Assembly (NCBI GenBank): GCA_022710935.1
Contig: JAKLFY010000033.1
Coordinates: forward strand, 1 to 64,000
DNA from: Verrucomicrobiota bacterium
Lineage (GTDB): Bacteria; Verrucomicrobiota; Verrucomicrobiia; Limisphaerales; J093
Direction: 5' to 3'
Length of the DNA stretch: 64,000 nt
Positions 34,126-55,561 of this stretch are shown here, in pieces. The first letter of the stretch is position 1; each line of letters opens with the position of its first letter. The position numbers and the translations under genes were made by a program. Under the pieces are notes generated by a model. The model was given only the letters and a program-made list of their open reading frames with translations, searched no databases and was not told the origin of the DNA.

Positions 34126-36231
34126 TTAAGTATGCAGCGGCAACAGCACACGAAACGTCGTGCCGCGACCAGGCTCGCTCTCGACCTCGACTCTCCCGCC
34201 ATGCGCTTCAACGATCATCTTGCTCTGGAACATCCCAATCCCCAGACCCTTCTTCTTGGTCGTTTGAAAGGGGCGAAAGAGCCGCCGGCTCAGGAACTCC
34301 GCGCTCATCCCGCAGCCCGTGTCCGCCACGGAGACAACCGCATGCCCGCCCTGGACCATCGTCGCCACACGAATGGTCCCAGACCCCGTAATCGCTTCCC
34401 GGGCATTGAGCAGCAGGTTGGTCAGGACCTTGGGTAACTGCTCGAGATCGACCGGCAATCGGGGAACCGACTGCAAGTCCTGAATCACCTGGATCGAATC
34501 CGCACCGTCAATCTGCCCCAACACAGTCGTGACCAACTGGTTCAGATCCGCCAAAACGGGCTTCACCTCGAGCCCGCGGCGGATCAGGGCAAGCCGCTGA
34601 ACCAGGCCATTGAGTCGATCCACCGAAGCCCCAATCCCGCGCAGAGCATCCGCCCTGAACTCCGGGTCGCCGAAATGCACCGGCAGGTTCCGCAACATCA
34701 ACGAGAGCGTCGACGCCGTGTTTTTCAGGTCGTGGACGAAGAAGGCCGACATCGACTGAAACGCTTCGAGTTCCCTGGCCTCGATCAGTTTCCGCGATAA
34801 CTGCAGATTCAGCAGGCTCGCAGCCACCTGATCCCCGATGCACTTCAGCAAATCGTAATCCTCATGCGAAAACTGGACGCCGCTGACCCGATCGGCCAGC
34901 GTGATGAACCCAAGCACCTCTCCCGCGGCCACCAACGGGACGCAGACCCGATTCCCGCCTTTCTTGAAATAGTCCGGATTGCACCGCTTCAGGGTCTCAA
35001 CCCAGCCGCCCTCGGAACGGTTGAGATCCAGCGGCGTCGGCGCCGCGCGCACGGCCGCGATCACCGCCGCGCTGTCGTCTCCCAAATCGAGCAGTTCGTT
35101 TGCCGCTTGCTCGGTCAAAGCCGTCGACGCGCCGAAGCGCAATTGCTGCCGATGCGGGTCCACCAGCCAAACCGTGACCGAGAGCGTGTTGAAGGTCTCG
35201 GCAATCAGCGTCGCCACGGCCCGACACAAATCCGCCTGGTCGAGCCGCGACGTCGTCCGTTCGGTAAACGCAGCCCATACACGCCGATAATCATAGACAG
35301 GGCGCCGCAAGTGCCGGCTGATGAATTGCTGCGTCCGGTGCCGAACGCGGTCGGACATCAACACGACCGCCAACCCCACCAGGGCCAGCAGCAACAGCAA
35401 CGCCTTGAGCGCAAAGGCCTGGTCGCCCCCAAACCGCGCGACGACTTCGGCCAGCACACCGACGCTGAGCAGGTAGACCCCAGCCAACAGAACCGTCAAT
35501 GAACCGTACAGAAAGGCATGGGACGGATAGACGTCGACCTCGCTCAAACCGGTCCTCAGGAAGGAGAACGCCAGCAGCAGCGTTCCCAGCAGCAGACTCG
35601 TGCCCAACACGCCGACAATCGGGAGTTGAATTCCCGAGAACAACACCGCCTGGCTGCTGACGTACATCCGGCCTCCGAGAATCACCGCGAGGCCGAGCAT
35701 GACGAATTTGACGCGCCATCGCATCATTCCCACCGTGCTGCGGAATGTCTTCTCGAGGTTGATCAGGACCAGCAACAACCCCAACAGATGGATCACTTCG
35801 AGCGCCTTGCCCGCCCAGCCTAGCGGAATGAACTGGACCGGCCCCCACACCGGCTCGATCGACTCCCCGATCAAATCCGAATGAAACCCCGCGGCCAGCG
35901 AGACCGGGATCAGCACCGCGCCAACCAGCACCCATCGCCATCGGTCGAGGAATTCGCGATAATTGCCCCGGGAATAGCATAGACTGTACGCGAGCCACAC
36001 ACTCGGCAGCACCGCCGTCAGCCACATTCTCCGGCCCTGCCATAGAAACGCCGACTCCGCAGATTCGCTGCCCGCAAGGACCCCGGCCAATGCCGTGTCC
36101 GCCGCCGCCAGCAACAAGCCGATCGCAAAGCTCCAGTGAGTCGCAATGCGGTGTTTGAACACCAGCCACGTCAGTGCCAGACCGCCGGCACACGCCGCAG
36201 CCGCAAATGCCGCTAGTGCATTCAAACTCAT
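34126..36231 (-). CDS. prsK: PrsK-like membrane histidine kinase
   Basis: The 701-residue sensor has about eight N-terminal membrane helices (to about residue 295), a GAF domain (about 320-470), a histidine box FFVHDLKN (near residue 499) and an ATPase domain with NLLLNAREA, DTGCGMSAEFL and KKKGLGIGMFQSK. This layout is that of the XrtA/PEP-CTERM system kinase PrsK, expected to phosphorylate the PrsR regulators encoded just downstream. Its input is unknown. ATG 36231 is chosen because it overlaps the exosortase stop by 4 bp (ATGA, 36228-36231). Confidence 0.93.
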   Translation of the reverse strand: MSLNALAAFAAAACAGGLALTWLVFKHRIATHWSFAIGLLLAAADTALAGVLAGSESAESAFLWQGRRMWLTAVLPSVWLAYSLCYSRGNYREFLDRWRWVLVGAVLIPVSLAAGFHSDLIGESIEPVWGPVQFIPLGWAGKALEVIHLLGLLLVLINLEKTFRSTVGMMRWRVKFVMLGLAVILGGRMYVSSQAVLFSGIQLPIVGVLGTSLLLGTLLLAFSFLRTGLSEVDVYPSHAFLYGSLTVLLAGVYLLSVGVLAEVVARFGGDQAFALKALLLLLALVGLAVVLMSDRVRHRTQQFISRHLRRPVYDYRRVWAAFTERTTSRLDQADLCRAVATLIAETFNTLSVTVWLVDPHRQQLRFGASTALTEQAANELLDLGDDSAAVIAAVRAAPTPLDLNRSEGGWVETLKRCNPDYFKKGGNRVCVPLVAAGEVLGFITLADRVSGVQFSHEDYDLLKCIGDQVAASLLNLQLSRKLIEARELEAFQSMSAFFVHDLKNTASTLSLMLRNLPVHFGDPEFRADALRGIGASVDRLNGLVQRLALIRRGLEVKPVLADLNQLVTTVLGQIDGADSIQVIQDLQSVPRLPVDLEQLPKVLTNLLLNAREAITGSGTIRVATMVQGGHAVVSVADTGCGMSAEFLSRRLFRPFQTTKKKGLGIGMFQSKMIVEAHGGRVEVESEPGRGTTFRVLLPLHT

Positions 36232-37244
36232 GCGGGACAAGTCGGCGGCGAGGCTGCGGCGCGCATCGACTGTGGCGGTTCACCGCTCCTCGAACACGGC
36301 GGCCGCTGCTGCCCAACCGGAGGCGGTGCTTGAGGGCCTTCGGCCTTCCTCGGCCGCTCGGTCTTGCGCAGCCACAGCAGCAGCAAAAAGAACGGGATCA
36401 GCGAGAGCATGAAGAACACCGGCCCGCCCCGGCGATGGATCGGCGAATCAATCATCTCGGGCGACACATGCACACACAGCATCGAGATGGTCAGAATCCG
36501 GAACCCGTTCCTCACGATGCCGAGCGGTATCACTGCGAGCGCCAACACCCAGCGCCTCCAACCCGTCCGCAAAAGCACATGTCCGCCGAGCACGGCCGTA
36601 ATCAACAGAACATAGCTCGACCGGATGCCGCTGCACTCCTGCGCCACCTGGAGCGTGATCCCGGGCAGGTCGAACACCTTGCCGTCCCGCACAAAGGGAG
36701 TCCCCGACACCGCAAGGAGCACCGCCGCGGCCTCCGCCGAGGCATACTGCAGACCGATCTCGACCGCATCGATCATGGCCGTCGGCCACGGAATCATGAA
36801 GGCGAGGAAGGCGATCGGGAAACACAGAGCGCGGACAATGCCCGTCCCGAGGCAACCCAGCGCACACGCCAACATCAGACCCAGATAGGCCGTGGTCATG
36901 AGGCTGAGGTAGTCGACTGTCGGCAGCGGACCGCGTGCTCGCAAGCCGGTCCAGTACCACACCAGCAGTGCCAGACCGATTGCGCCCGGCAGCGCTGCCC
37001 AAACCGATCGCGCCGACTGCGGCAGCGACACCGACCCGAGCCGTTTCCAAATCAGATAGCCGCTGATCAGCGGAATGAGAAGGACATGGGAAAACAGATC
37101 GCTTCGCAGGGCGAACCGGCCCAAATCCCAGAGCGGCCACGCGAACGCGAGCGTGACCAGCGCCCCGCAGACGGCGAACCCGCGCCAACCGCTGCGTTGT
37201 AGGCCGGGTCCCTCGACCCAGCGCTGCGCTGTGCCCGATGTCAT
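36228..37244 (-). CDS. Exosortase
   Basis: The 338-residue membrane protein has about eight hydrophobic segments and the exosortase catalytic set: Cys in AQECSGIRSS (near residue 204), Arg in VRNGFRI (near 250) and His in SPIHRRGG (near 270). Exosortases cut C-terminal PEP-CTERM-type sorting signals and are tied to exopolysaccharide loci. No fused EpsI domain is present. The two ends are odd: residues about 9-18 are encoded by a REP palindrome (37195-37222), and the last 50 or so residues are a Pro/Arg-rich tail overlapping another repeat type. ATG 37244 is preferred over GTG 37256. No PEP-CTERM substrate is encoded in this window. Confidence 0.9.
   Translation of the reverse strand: MTSGTAQRWVEGPGLQRSGWRGFAVCGALVTLAFAWPLWDLGRFALRSDLFSHVLLIPLISGYLIWKRLGSVSLPQSARSVWAALPGAIGLALLVWYWTGLRARGPLPTVDYLSLMTTAYLGLMLACALGCLGTGIVRALCFPIAFLAFMIPWPTAMIDAVEIGLQYASAEAAAVLLAVSGTPFVRDGKVFDLPGITLQVAQECSGIRSSYVLLITAVLGGHVLLRTGWRRWVLALAVIPLGIVRNGFRILTISMLCVHVSPEMIDSPIHRRGGPVFFMLSLIPFFLLLLWLRKTERPRKAEGPQAPPPVGQQRPPCSRSGEPPQSMRAAASPPTCPA
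37195..37222. repeat. REP palindrome inside the exosortase 5' coding region
   Basis: The block tgtaggccgggtccctcgacccagcg has the CCGGGTC/GACCC stem form of the REP family that fills the adjacent 500 bp. It lies within the first 20 codons of the exosortase gene. Confidence 0.7.
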
Positions 37245-37256
37245 GATTCGCGCCAC

Positions 37257-37740
37257 TGCCGCCCTGTAGGCCGGGTCCCCCGACCCGGCGCCGGCGTCTG
37301 TGATGTACCCAAGGTCATGATTTCGATGTCACCCTTCGCGCCGCGTGAGGCCACGCGGCCTACAGCATCGTTGCCGGCCGCGTTGTAGGCCGGGTCCACC
37401 GACCCGGCGCCGGCGTCTGTGATGTACCCAAGATCATGATTTCGATGTCATGATTCGCGCCGCGTGAGGCCACGCGGCCTACAGCATCGTTGTCTGCCGC
37501 CTTGTAGGCCGGCTGCCCTCAGCCGGCGTCAGTTGTAGGCCGGCTGCCCTCAGCCGGCGTCAGTTGTAGGCCGGCTGCCCTCAGCCGGCGTCAGTTGTAG
37601 GCCGGCTGCCCTCAGCCGGCGTCAGTTGTAGGCCGGCTGCCCTCAGCCGGCGTCAGTCACCGAAGACGTTCTTCGCGCCGCGTGAGGCCACGCGGCCTAC
37701 AGCATCGTTGCCGGCCGCGTTGTAGGCCGGGTCGTCTCAG
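37257..37740. repeat. REP/REPIN cluster with five exact 31-bp tandem copies
   Basis: This gap downstream of the RAYT gene contains no other gene. It holds alternating tgtaggcc... elements in both orientations, with stems CCGGGTC/GACCCGG and CCGCGTG/CACGCGG. From 37502 to 37656 there are five head-to-tail 31-bp copies of the CCGGCTG/CAGCCGG type. Another pair ends at 37740, where the RAYT gene's stop codon (37737-37739) lies inside the element. Confidence 0.9.
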
Positions 37741-38420
37741 TCTTCCTGCTCTTCCACGAGCATTCCGGTATCCAACAATGGAGGTGTTCCACGCTCGACG
37801 CGCGGACCATTGGGATCGTCGTGGAGAACCTCCCCGCCGTACGGCCATTGTTCTGGCCGCTCAACGTAACCATAACGAACTGGGTTGAGGCACAGATACA
37901 CCCACTTGCGCTGCTCGCTTTCGCAACTGCGGAACTTGTGATCGTGAAAGCCCGCTTGCCATCGCCAAGCCCGTTTCGTGCGAGTCAATTGGTGTTGTGA
38001 CTTGATCTCAGGCCCAAGCACGCCGCGGGCCGCATCATTCGCCTGCTTTCTGGTCGATGCCCGCGGGAGAACAGACGTTGAGTGTTGCAGGGGTTCAAGG
38101 CCGGCCGTCACGGCTTTCAGCGCTTTCACCCATTGCCCAAGGCGCACCGCTTCGCGACCCTGTTGGGCGATCAGGTGAATGTGATCCGGCATGATAATGA
38201 ACCGCCGCGCAAACCAGCCGTATCGGCTTGGACTGCCGAGCAAGAATCCACTCAACCGCTCGAACGTCAGTTCATTGGCAAGCACATGGACCCGACCATC
38301 GACGCACAGGGTTAACAGATACGAAATGTTGCCGCCAGGATCGGGCCAGACCCGGTGAAGCCGCCGCAATCGCCGCGGTGCTGGTTCGGGTTCGTTGGGT
38401 TGATCTCTTCTGATTCGCAT
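37737..38420 (-). CDS. REP-associated tyrosine transposase (RAYT)
   Basis: The 227-residue protein has the Y1-HUH transposase pattern of RAYTs: the metal-binding IIMPDHIHLIAQ (HIH) and a C-terminal block WQAGFHDHKFRSCES then YLCLNPVRYGYV with the candidate nucleophile tyrosine. RAYTs nick and rejoin single-stranded REP hairpins and are thought to spread them. It sits directly between two dense REP arrays, which are its likely substrates. The ATG at 38420 is chosen over upstream starts because the preceding codons lie in REP sequence and a GAGGAGG-like site precedes it. The stop is inside a REP element. Confidence 0.9.
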   Translation of the reverse strand: MRIRRDQPNEPEPAPRRLRRLHRVWPDPGGNISYLLTLCVDGRVHVLANELTFERLSGFLLGSPSRYGWFARRFIIMPDHIHLIAQQGREAVRLGQWVKALKAVTAGLEPLQHSTSVLPRASTRKQANDAARGVLGPEIKSQHQLTRTKRAWRWQAGFHDHKFRSCESEQRKWVYLCLNPVRYGYVERPEQWPYGGEVLHDDPNGPRVERGTPPLLDTGMLVEEQED

Positions 38421-38506
38421 CGCCACATCCAGCCTCCTCTGCTCCGCGCAGATCCATTGCCCTCCGGTCTGCGCAAGCATTCGAGCATACCACCGAAATG
38501 CGTCGA

Positions 38507-39295
38507 TGTCACCCTTCGCGCCGCGTGAGGGCACGCGGCCTACAACATCGATGTCTGCCGCTCTGTAGGCCGGCTGCCCTCAGCCGGCGTCAGTCACCGA
38601 AGGCGTTCTTCGCGCCGCGTGAGGCCACGCGGCCTACAACATCGTTGTCGCCCGCCTTGTAGGCCGGCTGCCCTCAGCCGGCGTCAGTCACCGAAGACGT
38701 TCTTCGCGCCGCGTGAGGGCACGCGGCCTACAACATCGATGTCTGCCGCTCTGTAGGCCGGCTGCCCTCAGCCGGCGTCAGTCACCGAAGGCGTTCTTCG
38801 CGCCGCGTGAGGGCACGCGGCCTACAGCATCGTTGTCAGCCACCTTGTAGGCCGGCTGCCCTCAGCCGGCGTCAGTCACCGAAGACGTTCTTCGCGCCGC
38901 GTGAGGCCACGCGGCCTACAACATCGATGTCTGCCGCTCTGTAGGCCGGCTGCCCTCAGCCGGCGCCTGTCACCGAAGACGTTCTTCGCGCCGCGTGAGG
39001 CCACGCGGCCTACAGCATCGTTGTCAGCCACCTTGTAGGCCGGCTGCCCTCAGCCGGCGCCTGTCACCGAAGGCGTTCTTCGCGCCGCGTGAGGCCACGC
39101 GGCCTACAGCATCGTTGTCAGCCACCTTGTAGGCCGGCTGCCCTCAGCCGGCGCCTGTCACCGAAGACGTTCTTCGCGCCGCGTGAGGCCACGCGGCCTA
39201 CAACATCGATGTCTGCCGCTCTGTAGGCCGGCTGCCCTCAGCCGGCGTCAGTCACCGAAGGCGTTCTTCGCGCCGCGTGAGGCCACGCGGCCTAC
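38507..39295. repeat. REPIN array: nine elements at an exact 94-bp period
   Basis: The string cgcgccgcgt begins at 38517, 38611, 38705, 38799, 38893, 38987, 39081, 39175 and 39269, each exactly 94 bp apart. Every full unit carries two different hairpins in opposite orientation: GCCGCGTG-aggc-CACGCGGC and GCCGGCTG-ccct-CAGCCGGC. Linkers vary slightly (for example tgccgctc versus agccacct; gtcag versus gcctg). It begins just upstream of the RAYT gene. It ends in the stop codon of the outer-membrane protein gene (39292-39294). No gene is present. Confidence 0.95.
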
Positions 39296-40695
39296 AGCGC
39301 ATACGACAACATCAAACCCACCTGGTTGCCCCCCGACGTGTAGCCCGCGTTGTCGGACGAGTTGTCTGTGTACCGATAGAACGCCGACACCTGAATGCGT
39401 TTGCGCAGCACCGTGCTCAGACTGACCTCGACATACGCCCGATCGTCCTCGCGTTCGACCGTGTCGGTCGCGAGCGTGCTGCTGTAGCTGGTGAAGCTGT
39501 ATCCGCCGCTCACCCCGAGCGACAAATGTCGCAACAGGCGCTGCCGCACAGACGCGCCCACACTGCTTGTCTCGGTAAACTGATCGCTGAAATAGGAGGT
39601 GCCGATGTCGTGCGAACCGAACAACGACACCGTCGTGTCCTCGGCGAGCTGATAGTCGATCGCCCCTTGAACGGTGGGCGAGAGTTTCGAGGACGCGTCG
39701 GTGTCGAGGAACTGCCGGATCTCGACGCCGCCTTCGAGCGTGTAGGAGAGCTTCCGCGCCACCTCGCCCCGCACCCGCCCCAGGACCCGCTGGCTGGTCA
39801 TGTCGGTGCCCGGATCCAGTTGGTCATAGGCAAAGCCCGCGCCGACGGCCACCGCAAGCCGCGGTTGCCACTGGTAATTGATCCAATCCGTGGTCGACCA
39901 GGTGCAACTGTCCGTGTAGGCCGTCGTGAACCGAAGCACCTGAGCCGCGCTCAACTCGAGCGTGGTCCGGTCGCTGAAGGCGTAATCGGCCCCCACCCGG
40001 GCGTTGTGGGTGTCCTGCTCCGTCTGGGCCGCCGTCTCGATCAACGGCGAACTGGTCGAGCCGTAGGCGTAGCCGGCGGTGAAACGCCAGCGATTCCACG
40101 TCGCCCACCCGCTCAAATTCACATGATGATCCACGGTGTCCTCATACGCCTCGTTCGAGTAGAACTTCAGGCTCGCCGTGTAGTCCAAGGTCCAATGCGG
40201 ACCCAGTTGGAACGTCAGGCCCGGCGACACGGTCTGTTGCAGCGTGTTCTCCTCTTGGTCCGGTCCGGACAAGATCCCCGTGCCGTAGAGCAGATTGTAG
40301 GAGACGTGCGGATGAAAGCTCACATTGCCCCATTGGAGCAGTTCGCGCCGGGGCGCAGCCGCCGCGGCTGGGGCCGGAGCCAGCACACCCATCCGGGGCG
40401 ACTCGATCTGACCGGCCGCAGGCAGGGCTTCCGTGCCCAGATTGGGCGTCGGGGGGAGCGGCGGAAGGCGTTGGGACCCTGCGCTTGTGTAGGGCTGGGA
40501 GACATACGGCGATGGCAGAGGCACGGGTGTCAGGGCACTGTCCTGAGGCAACGCCTCCGCTGGCGGTTGGGTGGTGACCGCCTGTTGTGCGGACGCAGGC
40601 AGACTGGCGGCCAGACACGGCAAGAACGCTCGCCAGCACAAGTCGGCGAGTCGTCGTTGTCGACGCGCTGTCCGCCCTTGGCGTTGTCTATTCAT
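39292..40695 (-). CDS. Outer-membrane beta-barrel protein of the EPS/exosortase locus
   Basis: The 467-residue protein has a signal-peptide-like start (LADLCWRAFLPCLAASLPASAQQ), a Pro/Ala-rich linker to about residue 110, then amphipathic beta strands with many aromatic girdle residues to the end (for example WTLDYTASLKFYSNEAYEDTV, WRFTAGYAYGSTSS, GLMLSYAL). This fits the outer-membrane beta-barrel proteins found in exosortase-linked EPS loci, possibly secretion or surface-attachment pores. The stop codon TAG is supplied by the last REP element of the adjoining array, so the original 3' end may have been altered. Confidence 0.8.
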   Translation of the reverse strand: MNRQRQGRTARRQRRLADLCWRAFLPCLAASLPASAQQAVTTQPPAEALPQDSALTPVPLPSPYVSQPYTSAGSQRLPPLPPTPNLGTEALPAAGQIESPRMGVLAPAPAAAAAPRRELLQWGNVSFHPHVSYNLLYGTGILSGPDQEENTLQQTVSPGLTFQLGPHWTLDYTASLKFYSNEAYEDTVDHHVNLSGWATWNRWRFTAGYAYGSTSSPLIETAAQTEQDTHNARVGADYAFSDRTTLELSAAQVLRFTTAYTDSCTWSTTDWINYQWQPRLAVAVGAGFAYDQLDPGTDMTSQRVLGRVRGEVARKLSYTLEGGVEIRQFLDTDASSKLSPTVQGAIDYQLAEDTTVSLFGSHDIGTSYFSDQFTETSSVGASVRQRLLRHLSLGVSGGYSFTSYSSTLATDTVEREDDRAYVEVSLSTVLRKRIQVSAFYRYTDNSSDNAGYTSGGNQVGLMLSYAL

Positions 40696-40726
40696 CGTCT
40701 GGTCTCCCCCCTTTGGATCCCGCCGA

Positions 40727-41866
40727 TCATCCCCAGTGCCGATAGCAGAAGTCCCCCAGCCACCAATAGACCCGGTCCGGCGCGTGCGCGCAAAAGTACC
40801 GGGCCAACTGGTGAAGGTTCCGGCGCTGCGCGAAAGTCACGCGGGGCCGCCGTCGTCTGGGCAAGAACAGTACCGGCAGATCTTCCTCGACTGTTCCCCA
40901 GCGGCGCTTGTAGTCGAGCAACCCCACGTTATCCAAAGCTGTTCGCCCGAAACTGAACACCACACATCCGAGCTGCAGAGCTTCCTGGATGGCGCTCCAG
41001 TACAGGAACTGACTTGCCCCCGTTGCCCGGCCCTCCTCGCTATCCCCCGCATATTCGAGTGTAAACGTGTTGCGAAACCGCAAGAACAAAACAGCGCTCA
41101 CCGATCTGCCCTCGTGGCACGCGCAGCGGACTCCGCAGTGGGTCGGCCCCAGAACATCGCGCAGGGACTCGAACAGGCGAAAAGGGATCGGCGGCAGTGA
41201 ATGCCGGCGCCGTGTCTCGGTTGCCAACGCATGGAAGTTGGCCAGGACCGTATCGGCCGGTTCGGACACAACGGTGATTCCATTTCGCTCCGCCTTGCCC
41301 AGCCACTGGCGAACACAAGTGCGGGAACAAGATTTCTTGATCTCGTCCAGAGGGCGGTCCAGGCGAAGGTAATGATGCTTGTAGAGGCTGCCGGGGCAGA
41401 AATCGGGTGATCGAGGCTTACCTGACGTCTGCCAGGGCCGGATCTCGAAGGCCTGGGCTCGCTCCCGGCTCATCATCGCCCACACGGCGGGCAGGAACCG
41501 GCCCCAGTCTTCCTCACTCGACAGCAGAGGATCGCAGAAGGATGCAAAAGGGACCGAGACGAGCCGGTTACCAAGCAGCCAACTGCGCACGGTATAGATG
41601 GGCATCCCTGCCAGAATCTGGGTCGAAATCGGATCCCACAAGACCAGATAGTCGGCATGCATATGGGCAAACGAACGCTCGATCGCCCGCTGCCAAAGGG
41701 AGAGATGATAGATAGACCCATTTGGATGACGTGCGACGAACGCGTCCCATATATCGGCGTCGGCTGAGTCGAGCCACGCGAGCTTCCCCTCGACTCGGAC
41801 GGGGCGTGCGTCTGCCGAGACTGATGCCCCGTGCCGCGGGGGATTCGCAGTCAAAACCTCGTGCAT
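40727..41866 (-). CDS. FemAB-like GNAT protein, XrtA/PEP-CTERM associated
   Basis: The 379-residue protein has the two-lobed FemAB/GNAT look: N-terminal WDAFVARHPNGSIYHLSLWQRAIE, and later C-terminal-lobe blocks VSAVLFLRFRNTFTLEYAGD and ATGASQFLYWSAIQEALQLGC, then YKRRWG. FemAB-related proteins usually transfer aminoacyl groups; a class is known from exosortase/EPS loci, where substrate and role remain undefined. Its neighbours are a barrel protein and a Cys-motif protein, all on the same strand. The start ATG 41866 is the first in frame. Confidence 0.85.
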   Translation of the reverse strand: MHEVLTANPPRHGASVSADARPVRVEGKLAWLDSADADIWDAFVARHPNGSIYHLSLWQRAIERSFAHMHADYLVLWDPISTQILAGMPIYTVRSWLLGNRLVSVPFASFCDPLLSSEEDWGRFLPAVWAMMSRERAQAFEIRPWQTSGKPRSPDFCPGSLYKHHYLRLDRPLDEIKKSCSRTCVRQWLGKAERNGITVVSEPADTVLANFHALATETRRRHSLPPIPFRLFESLRDVLGPTHCGVRCACHEGRSVSAVLFLRFRNTFTLEYAGDSEEGRATGASQFLYWSAIQEALQLGCVVFSFGRTALDNVGLLDYKRRWGTVEEDLPVLFLPRRRRPRVTFAQRRNLHQLARYFCAHAPDRVYWWLGDFCYRHWG

Positions 41867-42939: not shown

Positions 42940-43080
42940 TGTCGACCGCGTTGTAGGCCGGGTTCCCCGACCCGGCGCCTGCACCGATGTCTGTCCTTCC
43001 GCCGCGTGGGGGCACGCGGCCTACATGATCGTTGTCTGCCGCGCTGTAGACCTGGTCCTCCGACCCGGCCCTGTGCTGTT
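42940..43080. repeat. Three REP elements between the duplicated-Cys gene and the radical SAM gene
   Basis: tgtaggccgggttccccgacccggcg, a CCGCGTG-gggg-CACGCGG element in opposite orientation, and a degenerate tgtagacctggtcctccgacccgg lie in succession. They are diverged members of the family seen at 37-39 kb. Confidence 0.85.
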
Positions 43081-48954: not shown

Positions 48955-49130
48955 GCGCTGTAGGCCGGCTGCCCCCAGCCGGCGTCAGTCATCGAAAACA
49001 ACCTCTGCGCAGCGTGGTGCACGCGGCCTACAACACATTTGTCTGCCACGCTGTAGGCCGGCTGCCCTCAGCCGGCGTCAGTCATCGAAAACAACCTTTG
49101 CGCAGCGTGGTGCACGCGGCCTACAAGGTC
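48955..49130. repeat. Two REPIN units in tandem at 93 bp
   Basis: taggccggct starts at 48961 and again at 49054. Each copy pairs a CCGGCTG/CAGCCGG stem with an inverted gcgcagcgtggtgcacgcggcc element, a variant of the CCGCGTG stem. The outer linkers (atcgaaaacaacct) differ from the 38-39 kb array (accgaagacgttct). No gene is seen in the 48930-49184 gap. Confidence 0.88.
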
Positions 49131-51588: not shown

Positions 51589-51722
51589 AGCGCCGCGTGA
51601 GGGCACGCGGCCTACAGCATTGTTGCCTGCGCCGTTCTAGGCCGGCTGCCCTCAGCCGGCATCGGTCAGATTGAGTTGACATCCTTCGCGCCGCGTGAGG
51701 CCACGCGGCCTACAACATTGTT
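51589..51722. repeat. Three REP elements
   Basis: gccgcgtgagggcacgcggcctaca, ctaggccggctgccctcagccgg and a second CCGCGTG/CACGCGG element sit in the gap between the acyltransferase start and the SDR stop. They belong to the REP family of this locus. Confidence 0.85.
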
Positions 51723-55137: not shown

Positions 55138-55561
55138 AGGAAACCAAGCGGGTCAGACTTTCGGTTCACGAACGCCGGCTGAGGGCAGCCGGCCTACAGA
55201 GAAAGCCGACGATGCTGTAGGCCGCGTGCCCCCACGCGGCGCGGAGAATGTTCTCGGTCACGGACGCCATGGATAGAAGCAGCCAACCTACAACGTGGCA
55301 GACCACGATCGGTTAACTCACACTCCAGTCCGACTTTCCCACCAACGGATGGGTATATCGGAAATCCGGGCTGTGGCAAAGCCGCGCCGGGACAGGGGGG
55401 AATCAGGGTCTGGTCGTGGAGGGAAGCGCAGTTGCGAACGAACACTCCGTTGCCTTCGTCCCTCCCTCTATCCCGGCCCGGCTTTGATTGGCCAGCGCGC
55501 ATGAGTGCACCTTTCGATGACATCGGCTCCGCATTCTTCAGATGTTGGTGAGAAATGCGCG
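55138..55561. repeat. Repeat-filled gap upstream of the KAS III gene
   Basis: No gene is seen. Two REP elements in opposite orientation (about 55172-55197 CCGGCTG-agggc-type and 55211-55242 tgtaggccgcgtgcccccacgcggcgcg) are followed by the left copy of a 28-bp inverted repeat (55361-55388), whose other copy is at 56376-56403. The promoter of the acyl module should lie in this stretch. Confidence 0.75.

Follow-up and report, generated by a model that had tools for sequence, protein, structure and literature searches.

The window, as we call the whole 64-kb stretch of DNA analysed here, carries on its minus strand (37737-38420) a gene for a RAYT, or TnpAREP-type HUH tyrosine transposase, enclosed by arrays of REP hairpins. 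The protein has 227 aa if translation starts at the ATG at 38420, and 229 aa if it starts at the GTG at 38426. The frame can also open at GTG 38534, within a REP; since AGGAGG lies 6 nt ahead of GTG 38426, the start is probably 38426 or 38420 rather than 38534. The protein matches NF047646 (NCBIfam "REP-associated tyrosine transposase"; 1.2e-19, 70.6 bits), below the curated cut-off of 80, and, weakly, PF01797 (Pfam Y1_Tnp; 4.5e-4), also below the curated cut-off. A profile built from the window protein and 28 relatives (29 sequences) matched PDB 4er8, the solved structure of E. coli TnpArep, with an E of 5.3e-22, and IS200-type transposases more weakly. In the alignment of these 29 sequences, residues D79, H80, H82, T37, Y175, N179, P180 and R182 are invariant, the HUH motif (D79-H80-I81-H82) and the catalytic tyrosine (Y175) are present, and the reading frame keeps its catalytic residues intact with 0 internal stops. 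A conserved N-terminal Thr and the motif NP(L/V)(R/K)xG after the tyrosine are described as RAYT features in part of PMC2817692, and the window protein has both (T37 and N179-P-V-R-Y-G). The gene is therefore a RAYT, as the first-pass annotation had read it, borne out by the HUH and tyrosine motifs together with the profile match to 4er8; cleavage and mobilisation of REPs are its predicted functions. With its own protein as query, one match at E <= 0.001 was found in the genome, so the gene is single-copy.

Three other identities were considered and rejected. An IS200/IS605 insertion sequence does not fit, because the whole unit with its transposase is present in one genomic copy and not in multiple copies. 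In a TIRYT/TIRtron, the gene is flanked by long inverted repeats unrelated to REPs (PMC3733652, in part); here the flanking repeats, typed from the 25 longest of 173 inverted pairs, are of the REP type, and the TIR-like motif described below is absent near the gene. TnpAY1 subclass 2.4, with an intragenic REP between HuH and Y, was dismissed as well: the extra stretch of the RAYT at about aa 107-150 aligned to the repeats no better than shuffles did (score 18 versus 18.7 ± 2.5), which gives no sign of a REP origin for it. Elsewhere, at G387:C83:1059-1556, a RAYT reading frame has a REP between its HUH-side and tyrosine-side matches in an open frame (210 aa), like subclass 2.4.

Each REP consists of GTAG, an 8-nt arm, a loop of 4 nt (rarely 3) and the complementary arm. 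When hairpins were scored as GTAG followed by an 8-nt stem with at least 7 of 8 pairs, the window held 40, compared with 0-2 in each of 20 base-composition-preserving shuffles, and 28 of the 40 fall within 37199-39295. Their stems belong to the classes A (GCCGGCTG), B (GCCGGGTC), C (GCCGCGTG), D (GCCGGGTG) and E (GCCCGGTG), which have a GCC base in common and diverge above it. The gene is thus flanked on both sides by dense hairpin repeats, and the estimate of about 1.3 kb given in the first-pass annotation was accurate: the two blocks measure 502 nt (37199-37700) and 776 nt (38520-39295), or 1.28 kb. The block downstream of the RAYT has 11 REPs of classes B, C and A, including five direct A copies at 31-nt spacing. 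The upstream block has 17 REPs that alternate as C(-)/A(+) and form a tandem 94-nt unit with 8 full units; this copy number depends on an assembly that is broken into 259 contigs and on units that are identical. Unit 1 has the same sequence as unit 3, a single base separates unit 6 from unit 7, and two spacer variants are intermixed. Judging from these sequences, the arrays seem to have grown locally, in tandem, at a REP pair that was already there. Inverted REPs stand directly on both sides of the gene, a C(-) REP upstream (38520-38543) and a half-REP (+) at 37722 downstream, followed by intact REPs. In single-strand DNA folding, three stretches beat their shuffles (z -4.45 to -5.85), two of which lie in the upstream array. 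A CRISPR was dismissed, as the units are hairpin pairs and not spacer-separated repeats.

Outside the two blocks, the GTAG-hairpin scan found a B-like(+)/C(-) pair at 42953-43024, two A(+)/C(-) pairs at 48960-49124, two C REPs on the minus strand at 51592-51713, and an A(-)/C(+) pair at 55174-55240. GTAG-tagged REPs, inverted pairs and many copies, the features of a BIME or REPIN family, are all present.

The first-pass annotation placed the stop codon of the RAYT gene inside a REP. In the window, the stop (TCA, 37737-37739) misses by 3 nt a surviving half-REP of 12 nt (37722-37733, plus strand), whose stem does not fold (z +1.04) and which is recognised by its sequence and by an offset equal to that of the intact REPs of the relatives L103 and L106. 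In those two, an intact REP covers the stop, spanning -6 to +17; in the window, the CTAC of the half-REP ends at +17 as it does in them, and the other arm is lost. In L140, from the genome G001, the RAYT frame extends across an intact REP to a stop 7 nt past it. A REP or half-REP at the 3’ end is therefore a feature that the window gene shares with its three nearest relatives, and the claim of a stop within a REP is true of L103 and L106 but not of the window gene itself. REPs directly after a rayt stop and BIMEs capturing the rayt 3’ end appear in passages of PMC2817692, and stop codons supplied by REPs are a known precedent (PMC3733652, in part).

The window’s genome (7.52 Mb, 259 contigs, 95.7% complete) matches GTAGGCCGNNTNNNNNNANNCGGC exactly at 350 sites, 179 on one strand and 171 on the other, against 0 for the reversed control; class E escapes this pattern, so 350 is a minimum. 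The dispersed family anticipated by the first-pass annotation is therefore real. NF047646 has 10 matches in this genome, and only one of them, the window gene, has REP arrays in its 1.5-kb flanks. Of the 17 class A copies, 16 are on the window contig (37.5-55.2 kb) and the last is on C239; dispersed REPs belong mainly to C, together with B, D or E. In G001, 10 perfect A copies occur among 100 listed REPs (of 110), spread over nine contigs, which implies that class A is not new, only local in the window’s genome. In 775 kb of this genome, a sample partly picked for containing REPs, 80 REPs form 35 clusters, the largest with 8 REPs. Several contigs start in or near a REP cluster, so the arrays probably break the assembly.

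REP type and RAYT phylogeny co-vary. Over 25 RAYT loci of the phylum, selected for having REPs in their flanks, RAYT distance correlates with REP dissimilarity (Mantel r 0.575, p 1e-4, 10,000 permutations). Within the family, a protein search found a strong RAYT ortholog in 2 of 14 genomes, the window’s and G001, and these two have 350 and 110 REP pattern matches, the remaining twelve 0-18 (exact p 0.011). Over the 387 genomes of the phylum, a match to the window protein occurs in 7 of 11 genomes with at least 5 REPs versus 109 of 376 others (Fisher p 0.02). NF047646 gave some match in 11 of the 11 genomes searched with it, which are ten of the eleven REP-rich genomes (the window’s own left aside) and G100, with 3 REPs. 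The genomes G108, G156, G272 and G357, with 22, 5, 12 and 28 REPs respectively, have no match to the window protein. REPs in genomes without any RAYT, named in the first-pass annotation as contrary evidence, do occur weakly: G009, whose genome is 75% complete, has 4 REPs and no NF047646 match, and G012 has 13 REPs and no ortholog. They do not overturn the reading, because REPs are reported to outlast RAYT loss in E. coli strains (sections of PMC3733652 and PMC8049555). RAYT identity, REP/RAYT association, genome-wide spread and co-variation of types all hold, and the first interpretation of the locus is mostly supported. As a side observation, the family genome G013 has 73 NF047646 matches, many partial, which points to an enlarged family of Y1 transposases in that genome.

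A strict REPIN consists of two like REPs that form one long hairpin, and in the REPINs of Pseudomonas fluorescens SBW25 the two REPs are alike, whereas those paired in the window differ. Equal stems were found in 0 of 26 pairs in the window and in 0 of 39 sampled inverted neighbours of the genome. The description of the arrays as REPINs consequently stands for the inverted GTAG pairs but not for symmetry, since each pair joins two different stem classes. Stem classes differ in all 26 opposite-facing neighbour pairs of the window, in 38 of 38 opposite-facing neighbours among the first 100 of the 350 listed REPs of the genome, and in 39 of 39 inverted neighbours in the 775 kb, a set that overlaps with the 38. 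Elsewhere in the phylum, the stems are non-identical in 54 of 55 such pairs from 24 further RAYT loci, with a single-base difference in some. In an orientation test with loci and not REPs as the unit, as tandem copies are not independent, opposite-facing REPs were 1.75 of 12 nt more different after GTAG than same-facing ones; 0 of 2000 label shuffles reached this value, and the direction was the same in 15 of 18 testable loci (of 26). RAYT loci of other phyla gave -0.24 (1289 of 2000 shuffles), a weak control, since the test could be applied to only 12 of 50 loci and several of these 12 are chance hairpins.

In folding with DNA parameters, artificial equal pairs collapsed into one long hairpin, with a local-hairpin probability of 0.0, compared with 0.99 for the natural A/C pair tested. 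Artificial unequal pairs gave 0.17 (C/B), 0.0 (C/D), 0.45 (C/E) and 0.0 (B/D). Natural pairs mostly fold as two hairpins: the mean local-hairpin probability of outward pairs is 0.81 for A/C (n=12, range 0.11-0.99) and 0.52 for B/C (n=14), and several pairs at other RAYT loci are near 0. This suggests that unequal stems help separate hairpins to fold, without guaranteeing it, and hairpin separation may be their role. Di Nocera and colleagues noted a preference for heterodimers without obvious explanation and proposed protection from SbcCD (PMC3733652, in part). A more far-reaching proposal, which we offer tentatively and hold to be rather doubtful, is that in this phylum selection keeps paired REPs unequal as independent RAYT-cleavable hairpins, re-invented with new stem sequences in each RAYT lineage, and that the RAYT unit of the window moved into an existing pair.

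On the window’s minus strand, the RAYT and its arrays lie between a gene for a TIGR03016-like, PEP-CTERM-system-associated outer-membrane protein (39292-40695; 4.1e-8, below the cut-off) and an exosortase gene whose best profile match is VPDSG-CTERM exosortase XrtC (36228-37256); a PrsK-type histidine kinase follows in the same gene string (34126-36240; TIGR02916, 1.1e-121). The XrtC-type exosortase, together with genome sizes, suggests that the phylum is Verrucomicrobiota. The RAYT and arrays split this same-strand PEP-CTERM-type string (34126-41866), and they may attenuate its transcription. In G012, a genome of the same genus, the three genes are present in the same order, 92% (outer-membrane protein), 89% (exosortase) and 93% (prsK) identical. 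In G012, the junction of the outer-membrane-protein and exosortase genes has no RAYT; a single intact C REP and a degenerate B REP stand there, separated by a 29-nt spacer. The outermost C REP of the window (39272-39295, minus strand) is common to both genomes; the outermost B REP (37199-37222, plus strand), at the 5’ end of the annotated exosortase frame, is the one that is degenerate in G012. The outer-membrane-protein gene takes its TAG stop from the GTAG of a REP in both genomes (39292-39295 in the window, L213:7656-7659 in G012), and GGCGCGAA is present at both ends of the window’s RAYT/array segment. No REP was found between the same two genes in G001 and G003, and the RAYT of G001 lies elsewhere, with no match to the window’s neighbours in 18 kb; the gene therefore probably reached this locus after the genera split. 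The order of events proposed here is a gain in the window’s lineage and not a loss in G012.

Seventeen REP sites of the window’s genome were compared with G012, of which 13 could be paired and four could not. At 5 of the 13 (L002, L011, L012, L020 and L030), both flanks align and G012 is without the REP segment, and L018 is probably likewise; 4 (L003, L004, L014 and L022) align on one side of the REPs, or only in patches on the other; and at 3 (L024, L025 and L029) the alignment runs through a REP region common to both genomes. At L002, L004 and L030, outer inverted repeats enclose an E(-)/C(+) REP pair, and the L030 insertion has a 10-nt overlap with the empty G012 site that resembles a target duplication. 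These sites, like other clusters, contain an element of about 140 nt with outer inverted repeats of about 20 nt (GCATCTGGTTGTTGTCGG-like) around the E/C pair. A search for this TIR-like motif (18 nt, up to 4 mismatches) returned 49 occurrences in the 775 kb, some without REPs, and 12 of the 35 REP clusters lie near one. Because about a third of the sampled clusters are near such motifs, the RAYT may not be the only mover of dispersed REPs. These motifs, and the locality of class A, weaken the view that the window RAYT is cognate to every dispersed REP.

We consider it highly probable that the locus is a REPtron, a RAYT (TnpAREP) gene within its own BIME-type arrays, with the following history and mechanism. 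The outer-membrane-protein and exosortase genes would have had an inverted C/B REP pair between them in the ancestor of the genus, and in the window’s lineage the RAYT gene with flanking REPs would have come to lie within that pair. The repeats would then have multiplied in place as tandem 94-nt A/C units through slippage or recombination, possibly with RAYT action. The RAYT would recognise GTAG-tagged hairpins in single-stranded DNA and cut and rejoin strands beside them, whereby inverted REP pairs would occasionally be copied to other sites; unequal neighbouring stems would let each REP form its own hairpin and not one long joint hairpin. This proposal builds on observed gene identity, array structure, genome-wide copies, RAYT/REP co-variation, unequal stems and a gene-less congener locus. 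What weakens it is that RAYT-proximal class A is local (16 of 17 copies on the contig), the REPs at dispersed sites being mainly C, with B, D or E. That the arrays are inert tandem repeats, with a RAYT that is domesticated or dead and had no part in their growth, seems improbable to us: the pattern of identical units 1 and 3 and nearly identical units 6 and 7 is slippage-like, and published models include local REPIN multiplication by host replication (PMC8049555, in part), but the catalytic residues are intact without an internal stop and RAYT and REP co-vary across the phylum.

The G012 locus could also be a deletion product, a scar and not the older state, left when recombination between the flanking REPs removed the RAYT and arrays from G012. 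Recombination between the outer REPs would leave a reduced locus such as that of G012, and the G012/window junction falls in GGCGCGAA, common to both sides. We hold this loss to be possible but on the unlikely side, since the 13 REPs that G012 has genome-wide, together with the five dispersed sites where both flanks align and the REP segment is absent, indicate that its REP population was probably never large. Equally possible, and again not what we favour, is that the dispersed REPs spread mainly by a different transposase moving the element of about 140 nt with its E/C pair, the RAYT shaping only the local array. The TIR-like motif near 12 of 35 clusters could indeed mean another transposase as mover; the outer repeats at L002, L004 and L030, with the overlap at L030, and the confinement of class A to the RAYT’s neighbourhood point the same way. 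However, 23 of the 35 clusters have no TIR-like motif nearby, the motif occurs apart from REPs too, REP numbers in the family track the RAYT ortholog, and other Y1-type loci have a flanking TIR-like motif in only 2 of 9 cases, on one side only.

The REPtron reading was set against known systems as described in parts of PMC2817692, PMC3733652, PMC6006769, PMC3686654, PMC3116915, PMC8266576 and PMC8049555, where REPtrons, BIMEs, y/z REPs, REP multiplication close to the gene, turnover of classes at orthologous RAYTs, heterodimers and REP stop codons are already published. The E. coli REPtron (TnpAREP with y, z1 and z2 REPs; PMC8266576, PMC6006769) likewise has an HUH-Y1 protein, GTAG-tagged hairpins and two-type inverted REP pairs in tandem arrays by the gene; the window differs in its perfect 8-bp palindromic stems with 4-nt loops, its longer array, and its classes A-E with a common GCC base and differences above it. 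In Marinomonas and Thauera, REPs also gather round the RAYT, which the authors read as recent arrival and local multiplication (PMC8266576, PMC2817692), whereas in the window’s genome only class A is local and the other classes are dispersed in hundreds. SBW25 has a tandem REP-pair cluster beside each RAYT, the largest over 700 bp with four REPINs (PMC3116915). The "unusual local scale" asserted by the first-pass annotation is thus upheld in size, as 1.28 kb exceeds that cluster, but the arrangement is of the same kind. Closest are the GTAG heterodimers of Di Nocera and colleagues (2013), with REP dimers of different stems and REP-derived stops; here heterotypy is near-absolute, orientation-specific and seen with many RAYTs of one phylum. 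The same work notes that Opitutus terrae (Verrucomicrobia) is rich in GTAG repeats (PMC3733652). Among the papers listed on REPIN/RAYT empty sites, asymmetric REPINs and REPs in Verrucomicrobia, Opitutus or Akkermansia, nothing is closer than PMC3733652.

The locus sets a dense, probable REPtron from beyond the well-studied gamma-proteobacteria against a locus of the same genus that lacks the gene. With such a natural before/after pair one can ask if RAYT units are mobile and if REP growth is driven by RAYTs. Part of PMC8266576 reports no evidence of tnpAREP mobility, and the comparison of the window and G012 sites bears on this. The near-absolute rule of unequal stems is directly testable by cleavage of equal versus unequal pairs.

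Two further repeat families were seen at the dispersed sites. G012 carries about 20 copies of a repeat of about 90 nt, not of the studied REP type, which matches the right flank of L011 (query 1220-1310), and a second family, of about 55 nt, matches the left flank of L020.
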